From: an uncultured Synechococcales cyanobacterium
Lineage (GTDB): Bacteria > Cyanobacteriota > Cyanobacteriia > Thermosynechococcales > Thermosynechococcaceae
Assembly (NCBI GenBank): GCA_902806435.1
Contig: CADCWO010000103.1
Coordinates: forward strand, 1,308 to 65,307
Direction: 5' to 3'
DNA length: 64,000 nt
The notes beneath the pieces were generated by a model that saw only the letters and a list, made by a program, of their open reading frames with translations, did not search any database and was not told the DNA's origin. Positions 46,421-48,551 of this stretch are shown in pieces (the first letter of the stretch is position 1; each line of letters opens with the position of its first letter). Made by a program: the position numbers and the translations under genes.

Positions 46421-46538
46421 ACTATTCTCCAGTGTTACTTACACCTAATATGATCCTGGGGCTACGCAATCCTAACTTCTGACAAAGATCTGATTTAGCC
46501 ATTCACCGCTCCAGCCGAAGCCATCTAGCCTTAGCAGC

Positions 46539-47531
46539 TCAGTGCTTGACCAAATTTTTGGCAACAATTTCTTGCTCAAAATTAAATAGGTTGGGGTTTT
46601 GAGGGTCAACAATTGCCCGCAGCCAATGGACATCGGGTGAGCCAAAGGTTTCCACACGTGTGAAGTTTTCAATCCGGCGCTTACTTGCGGAGCCAAATAG
46701 CGGCTTGTTGATTTGGAAGTTGTGGCTATCCCCGTGGACTAAAACGACTGGCTTTTGAAAGGCAATCACTTCTGCTTCTAAAGCAGCGATAAAGTCATTG
46801 AAACCGGTACGTTCTGCAGCGTCAGGCGGCAACTCAAAGTTGGGATTTGCTTGAATAACTAGCATAATCCCTTTCCTGTTGTTGGTTTTAGCTAGGGCAA
46901 ATGTCTGCTTCATCCAAGCTAGGTTAGCAGCATTGCGCTCAGCATATTCCTGGTTAGCTTCTGGAGTCCGGCCGAAATTATTGTTACTACCAACGATGTG
47001 CAGGCCAGCGAACATTGCATCACCGTAGGTCCACCGTACATTCTCCCGGAATTTACGGTACTGGGGTTCTTCGCTCTGACGCGTTAGTCTCAAGGTGCGT
47101 TGCCCCAAACTTTGATCGCCTTGAAAGAAGACTTCCCGCAGCTTCGCCAATCTTTCTAACGGATCATAGTTGCCGTTGTTCGCCCGGTGGCAGTCTGTCC
47201 ATTCATTATCACCAGGAACAAAGATGAAGGGAGACTCAAAGGTTTGAAACAGCTCCCGCCGCTGGGTAAAGGCTTGATTGTTACACAGGGTTGAGCCACT
47301 CTTAAAGTCGCCATCATGAACCACAAAGGCTAGCTTAGATTGGTTGATTTCGTCTCTCAGGTTAAGAAACTGCGTCTCCTGGTCCGAGGTGTAGGGTAAG
47401 TCCCCAATCAACCCAAATTCAAACCTGGGAGTTGCTACCCTTTCTTGCTTAGTAGGTTGGGCCTGGACCAGGGAGCTTACGCTGACAGCTATAGCCGCTA
47501 GCAATACAACAAGCCAATATCGTCTGCGCAT
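46539..47531 (-). CDS. exported metallophosphoesterase
   Basis: About 330 aa with a signal peptide (MRRRYWLVVLLAAIAVSVSSLVQAQ) and a calcineurin-like phosphoesterase fold: FEFGLIGDLPYTSDQE, VVHDGDFKSGS, FVPGDNEWTDCH, and a late VLVHGDSHNF. Metal-binding Asp/Asn/His are in place. I chose the ATG at 47531, since AGGG lies 6 bases before it and it puts positive charges right before the hydrophobic core; the frame extends to 47576. It is the first gene of a pair with the PhoX enzyme. Confidence 0.87.
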   Translation of the reverse strand: MRRRYWLVVLLAAIAVSVSSLVQAQPTKQERVATPRFEFGLIGDLPYTSDQETQFLNLRDEINQSKLAFVVHDGDFKSGSTLCNNQAFTQRRELFQTFESPFIFVPGDNEWTDCHRANNGNYDPLERLAKLREVFFQGDQSLGQRTLRLTRQSEEPQYRKFRENVRWTYGDAMFAGLHIVGSNNNFGRTPEANQEYAERNAANLAWMKQTFALAKTNNRKGIMLVIQANPNFELPPDAAERTGFNDFIAALEAEVIAFQKPVVLVHGDSHNFQINKPLFGSASKRRIENFTRVETFGSPDVHWLRAIVDPQNPNLFNFEQEIVAKNLVKH

Positions 47532-47576
47532 CTCTCGCCCTAAGCTTTTTACCTGCGTCCATAGCTTAATGAACAT

Positions 47577-47617
47577 TCCTCAACCTCAGGTAAAGATTCG
47601 ATTAACCTCTCGTTAAG
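47577..47617 (-). promoter_or_regulatory. candidate Pho box upstream of the phosphatase pair
   Basis: On the minus strand three 8-mers at an 11-base period read CTTAACGA, GTTAATCG and CTTTACCT, each followed by a 3-base spacer; a fourth (GTTGAGGA) is poor. Cyanobacterial PhoB/SphR boxes are direct repeats of about PyTTAAPyCy with 3-base spacers. The first and third copies match 7 of 8, the second 6 of 8. They lie 57-86 bases before the start I chose for the metallophosphoesterase. Confidence 0.55.
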
Positions 47618-47819: not shown

Positions 47820-48551
47820 CTAGTTTGCATTAGCTGATTTAGAACGAGGAACTTGGATGATTAACAAAGAAAAATAAGGTAATTCTAACTGGGGGCGATC
47901 GTGTAAATCTTGATAAATCACCTGCTGGGGTAAAGTTGCCCGCTCCACGACATAGCTATGCTCTAAAAGCTGGTGGGCTTTGAGGATGGCCCAAACTTGC
48001 TCATAGACGGAACTTACTTTCAATAGAACTACTACATCCGCCCATTTCAGGACAGATTCCAACTCCGCCACGGTATACAGGGCTGGTAGTATGGCTAGGC
48101 GATCGCTACTAATCGTTAGTGGTATACCCAAGGCTGCGGCCGCAGCCAAAGGGGAACAAATCCCTGGTATGGTCTGAATTTGAGCATCAGGATGGTGCTG
48201 TTGAAGCGTTTGGGCCAGGTACGTAAAGGTACTGTAAAAACTCACATCCCCTTCGCAGACAAAGACTACATCTCCCTGTTGCAGATACTGCCATACTTCC
48301 GCTGCCGCTACTTGCCAAGCTTGCTCTAGCACTGCTTGCTCTTGCACGTAAGGGAACTTTAGAGGAAGTTGGTGTTGTTCAGGACGCAACCATTGGCTGA
48401 CAATTTGCTGGGCAATGCCCGTTCCCTGAAGTCCTGCCGGGAAGGCAACCACAGGAGCGCTCTTCAGGAGTCGTAAACCTTTGAGGCTAACTAGTTCTGG
48501 ATCTCCTGGACCTACCCCAATTCCATAAAGAATTCCCACCTGAGCGCTCAT
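47820..48551 (-). CDS. cobI: precorrin-2 C20-methyltransferase
   Basis: A 243-aa SAM-dependent tetrapyrrole methylase. N-terminal GIGVGPGDPELVSLKGLRLL (SAM-site Gly-rich loop), then GDVVFVCEGDVSFYSTFTYL, IPGICSPLAAAAALGIPL and ADVVVLLKVSSVYEQV. It adds the C20 methyl group in corrin-ring synthesis (CobI/CbiL). Together with cobS it shows cobalamin-pathway capacity. It ends 289 bases before the phosphatase operon starts. Confidence 0.94.
   Translation of the reverse strand: MSAQVGILYGIGVGPGDPELVSLKGLRLLKSAPVVAFPAGLQGTGIAQQIVSQWLRPEQHQLPLKFPYVQEQAVLEQAWQVAAAEVWQYLQQGDVVFVCEGDVSFYSTFTYLAQTLQQHHPDAQIQTIPGICSPLAAAAALGIPLTISSDRLAILPALYTVAELESVLKWADVVVLLKVSSVYEQVWAILKAHQLLEHSYVVERATLPQQVIYQDLHDRPQLELPYFSLLIIQVPRSKSANAN

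Follow-up and report, generated by a model that had tools for sequence, protein, structure and literature searches.

Phosphatase genes and direct repeats

In the window, i.e., the whole 64,000-nucleotide stretch of DNA that was analysed, the gene of a predicted exported metallophosphoesterase (MPE) is followed on the minus strand by that of a PhoX-type alkaline phosphatase (Table 1). Upstream of MPE, on this same strand, which is the coding strand of both phosphatases, three 8-mers recur with a period of 11 bases and linkers of 3 bp (CTTAACGA-gag-GTTAATCG-aat-CTTTACCT, from 47617 to 47588).

Table 1. Features of the phosphatase locus (positions in the window; matches are given as identical bases out of eight).
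Feature	Position	Strand	Basis or remark
PhoX-type alkaline phosphatase, 440 aa	45098–46420	minus	PF05787; probably second gene of the unit
Exported metallophosphoesterase (MPE), predicted	46539–47531 (longer ORF from 47576)	minus	Pfam Metallophos, fold model, relatives
Possible -10 element TAAGCT (TAN3T)	47563–47568	minus	19 nt past box 3; weak
Supposed fourth box GTTGAGGA	47577–47584	minus	poor; 3/8 to CTTAACCT, 4/8 to YTTAAYYW
Putative Pho box 3 CTTTACCT	47588–47595	minus	7/8 to CTTAACCT, 7/8 to YTTAAYYW; core TTTA
Putative Pho box 2 GTTAATCG	47599–47606	minus	5/8 to CTTAACCT, 6/8 to YTTAAYYW
Putative Pho box 1 CTTAACGA	47610–47617	minus	6/8 to CTTAACCT, 7/8 to YTTAAYYW; in the 21.8-bit triple
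cobI-like precorrin-2 C(20)-methyltransferase	47820–48551	minus	upstream neighbour, not a target; NF004614, 386.1 bits (cut-off 251)

MPE scores 21.4 bits against the Pfam Metallophos model (PF00149), 0.1 below the cut-off of 21.5, and a search of the PDB sequences returned no relative at E ≤ 1. Its structure model (pLDDT 89.6) resembles calcineurin-like phosphodiesterases, with Z up to 21 in the fold comparison. The matches to GpdQ, SMPDL3A and Lmo2642 have Z values of 19–21 over 227–273 residues with an rmsd of 3.1–4.6, but the identity in these same matches is only 10–14%. In 28 aligned MPE sequences the columns of the GD, GDNE and GDSH-type motifs are invariant or nearly so; these motifs are presumably the metal ligands of the calcineurin-like fold. 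MPE is thus predicted, from its model, to have this fold together with the conserved motifs. The identity of PhoX is clear-cut (310.9 bits against PF05787, for a cut-off of 24), and it is the only PhoX match in the genome, which comprises 4.79 Mb in 278 contigs; no match to PhoD was found in it. Judging from the kinship between genomes and from the relatives that bear names, the organism is probably a cyanobacterium of the Thermosynechococcaceae.

The ORF of MPE as listed opens at ATG 47576, which abuts the repeats and is preceded by GAGG, a possible ribosome site. Because close relatives match from residue 17 onwards or have their first residue opposite M16 in the alignment, and because the protein opens with a good signal sequence when read from M16, the corresponding ATG at 47531 is preferred as the likely start. 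A start at 47576 is disfavored by the same comparison, and also because a promoter would not fit in next to the boxes. Box 3 ends 56 nt upstream of ATG 47531. No sigma-70 promoter pair was found on the minus strand, as expected of an activated promoter. In the sister genome (G012), the in-frame start of MPE is itself ambiguous.

One of the two patterns used in Table 1, YTTAAYYW, is what we take to be a degenerate form of the cyanobacterial Pho-box consensus. The other, CTTAACCT, is the consensus quoted in the available part of PMC1906773. The core is TTAA in two of the three boxes and TTTA in the third. This TTTA core of box 3 and the match of box 2 at only five of eight positions count against a Pho box; a TTTA core also occurs in one box of the known sphX site of Synechocystis (Table 1 of PMC1906773).

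The sequence-only reading had described three or four Pho-box-like 8-mers at an 11-base period before a phosphatase pair. Three of these boxes, with 5–7 of 8 bases matching CTTAACCT, are retained, but the fourth is ruled out by its match of 3/8. The position of the repeats before the phosphatases was confirmed, with the likely start of MPE shifted from 47576 to 47531; the fourth repeat and the start codon apart, the sequence-only reading is supported.

Predicted Pho-box sites and the SphR-like regulator in the genome

The matrix used for scoring derives from 23 published cyanobacterial Pho boxes, none of them from the present genome, which were left from the 30 sites taken from Su et al. 2007 (the part available as PMC1906773) when 7 near-duplicates were dropped. 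A position-weight-matrix scan had been proposed as a check of the sequence-only reading, and it bears that reading out: the triple scores 21.8 bits, the highest value of all the approximately 128,000 positions of the window, compared to 14.0 bits for the best non-overlapping runner-up. The 23 training sites themselves score 8.0–27.3 bits, a range that includes the triple.

The pattern of three cores, TTWAY-N6-TTWAY-N6-TTWAY, has six exact matches on the two strands of the genome, at five loci: the MPE site, pstS, a type I secretion (T1SS) HlyD gene, the gene of an RTX-repeat protein, and folC. The promoter of the organism's own pstS scores 23.4 bits, a value close to that of the MPE site. Strong Pho boxes precede HlyD (27.6 bits; L170:4332-4361, contig C230 of this genome, G000) and the RTX-repeat protein (22.3 bits; L171:4642-4671, G000:C231). 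The two sites recall Synechocystis, in which a T1SS/RTX cluster has been verified as a target of PhoB and each of the three TTAA cores makes a difference in EMSA, according to the available text of PMC11126600. Since this cluster is a verified target, three of the four other loci fit known kinds of targets; folC does not.

The array upstream of folC scores 30.2 bits, with four consecutive boxes (L169:4522-4562, G000:C78, minus strand), and is the top-scoring one met in the genome; it is divergent from an 88-aa ORF and has no evident phosphate role. Another site, of 21.8 bits (L131:10664-10693, G000:C32), lies about 0.3 kb before an exported-looking ORF of 126 aa, with an NblR-like regulator and its kinase nearby. 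A third, of 20.8 bits (L173:3083-3112, G000:C103, 91083), has a TetR-type gene on one side and, about 0.5 kb away on the other, a CRP-type regulator. Elsewhere in the genome, a PhoA that has two domains and an RTX-like tail is encoded beside a large extracellular esterase/nuclease-like protein (L177:4402-7596, G000:C79); no convincing Pho box was found before this phoA (10.0 bits, p 0.22).

On contig C208, the gene of an OmpR-type regulator precedes that of a PhoR-like kinase. The DNA-binding domain of the regulator matches that of E. coli PhoB (1gxp) with an E-value of 2.2e-21, but the whole protein scores 225.1 against the PhoB equivalog model, below the cut-off of 296.2. We take this regulator to be a putative SphR. 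Of all proteins of the genome, the NblR-like regulator of contig C32 matches the PhoB model best, but as a candidate for SphR it was rejected: its best match in NCBIfam is NblR, just under the cut-off.

Pho-box-like repeats upstream of MPE relatives

The upstream regions of MPE relatives in Nostocales contain repeats with a period of 11, e.g., CTTAATTTactCTTAATCC, and a more distant group of Nostocales MPE has CATAACCTattCATAACCT-like arrays. When compared with dinucleotide shuffles, the two-box score reaches p ≤ 0.05 at all nine close loci (at least 70% identity to the Nostoc query) and at 14 of the 16 distant ones (about 42%), versus 18 of 400 control windows taken from the same loci; these loci are mutually related, and the Fisher value overstates the number of independent events. 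The two-box test was adopted after the three-box scan (p ≤ 0.05 at 5/9 close and 12/16 distant loci) proved weak in some of them. L206–L209, which are distant or partial, were left out of these tests, and L024 and L026 were scored and not counted, their motifs being the same as those of L188 and L187. In an alignment of five upstream regions from Nostocales, conservation is most evident in the two CTTAA repeats.

Among the other cyanobacteria, one of 14 MPE loci passes (L009); L018, with 38 bases upstream, was omitted from this test. In the closest relative, the sister genome, whose MPE is 74% identical, no convincing Pho box was found before either MPE or the small PhoX. With no box before this MPE and only one positive among the 14 cyanobacterial loci outside Nostocales, the putative control of MPE by a Pho box is lineage-specific. 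The absence of the site in the sister means that it was either gained in the present lineage or lost in the sister.

The MPE family occurs in cyanobacteria, proteobacteria and acidobacteria. Two CTGTCAT-type boxes in which no fewer than 11 of the 14 bases match were found at five of 63 non-cyanobacterial MPE loci (a few gammaproteobacteria and one acidobacterium), versus 23 of 2,780 windows of these loci with the five counted in (Fisher p ~1e-4). MPE may represent a family of uncharacterised exported phosphodiesterases that has repeatedly been brought under the control of PhoB or SphR, with boxes of the cyanobacterial type in Nostocales and in the present organism and of the CTGTCAT type in a few gammaproteobacteria and in an acidobacterium; we consider the chances that this is so to be about even.

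A literature search returned no paper tying metallophosphoesterases to cyanobacterial Pho boxes, and none on a calcineurin-like phosphoesterase in phosphate-starved Nostoc. Metallophosphoesterases of Nodularia are listed in PMC3610870, the text of which does not contain the term "pho box", and the subject of PMC5082522 is plcP in Pseudomonas. The Pho box itself is ordinary regulon biology, in an expected arrangement. What is worth following is its recurrent link with the MPE family, which makes a testable prediction for phosphatases that have not been studied. If the link is true, MPE would join PhoA, PhoD and PhoX as a further family of phosphatases of phosphate starvation; its confirmation would add one more enzyme to organic-phosphorus scavenging, and the MPE gene could be used as a marker of phosphate stress.

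Proposed control of MPE and PhoX

The repeats are very probably a cyanobacterial Pho box in an SphR-activated promoter that serves MPE, and probably also PhoX. Like the sphX, pstS and phoA sites of Synechocystis PCC 6803, as described in the available part of PMC1906773, the MPE site has three 8-mers with a period of 11, of which two have a TTAA core, and lies upstream of a gene with a predicted role in phosphate scavenging; unlike in these SphR sites, the target is MPE followed by a small PhoX, and the boxes match the consensus at five to seven of eight positions. In Trichodesmium, a deficiency of phosphate raises phoX and phoA, both of which adjoin Pho boxes (PMC6411698, in the part available). 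The Trichodesmium gene Tery_3845 from the same source shares with the present locus the PhoX family, the Pho box and the role in phosphate scavenging, but here the box precedes MPE and not phoX directly.

Under phosphate starvation, phosphorylated SphR, which is of the PhoB type, would bind to the three tandem 8-mers, which would replace the -35 element. The bound regulator would recruit RNA polymerase, and transcription would proceed from about 25 nt upstream of ATG 47531. The exported MPE would be produced, along with PhoX, probably by read-through, and the phosphatases would let the cell draw phosphate from extracytoplasmic organic esters. The sequence-only reading had pointed to a phosphate-starvation regulon as what would control such a pair, and control of the phosphatase gene by an SphR-type Pho box is supported by the score and rarity of the site, the pstS site, the SphR-like regulator and the recurrence in Nostocales. 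Against it count the lack of a box before the MPE of the closest relative, the single positive among the 14 cyanobacterial loci outside Nostocales, the equal scores at genes with no clear link to phosphate, the one-mismatch pattern, which does not outnumber its control, and the score of the regulator below the PhoB equivalog cut-off.

Two other explanations of the repeats were considered. With a first-order Markov background of the composition of the window, one in 19.9 million positions reached 21.8 bits, which amounts to about 0.5 such scores expected in the whole genome. This figure, and the fact that the repeats are not conserved in the sister genome, would suit a chance arrangement without function, but the expectation for the window is about 0.006, and the site falls between genes, in a short stretch that precedes a phosphatase. 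The reversed control of the three-core pattern gave no exact match in the genome (with one mismatch, the signal is lost in noise, with 36 matches versus 31 in the control), and boxes recur before the relatives of MPE. The repeats are more than chance, and it is very improbable that they have no function. It is hardly more probable that a different regulator of the OmpR/PhoB family, which would also recognize direct repeats of about 11 bp, binds there, the link to phosphate coming from the neighboring genes only. The genome encodes many OmpR-family regulators (17 matches of at least 168 bits to the PhoB model), and scores equal to that of the MPE site are also found at genes without a clear phosphate role, folC and the 126-aa ORF of contig C32. 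Against this, the matrix derives from SphR targets, the organism's own pstS has the same kind of array, and the MPE family of Nostocales bears such boxes.

MPE and PhoX are separated by 118 bp on the same strand (46421–46538), and neither a terminator-like nor a promoter-like site was predicted on the minus strand in this gap. From this gap and the shared strand, PhoX is probably co-regulated with MPE; directly before phoX, no convincing box of its own was found (5.0 bits). It is also conceivable, if rather unlikely, that the repeats control MPE only and that PhoX has its own phosphate-independent promoter. The length of the gap is in favor of this possibility, and so is the sister genome: there, MPE and the small PhoX are parted by a large PhoX encoded on the opposite strand, so that co-transcription is not conserved. 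A PhoX adjoining MPE is rare: 89 loci were inspected, many of them too short to judge, and, apart from the two among them that belong to the window itself, a clear PhoX neighbor was seen only in the sister (L010) and at two loci with methanotroph names (L028 and L036). The common strand of MPE and PhoX, and a gap free of terminator-like or promoter-like sites on it, nevertheless argue for the co-regulation of the two genes. The phosphatase cluster of the sister genome extends over L178:5121-10119 (G012), and its large PhoX, which is encoded on the strand opposite to MPE, has 775 residues.
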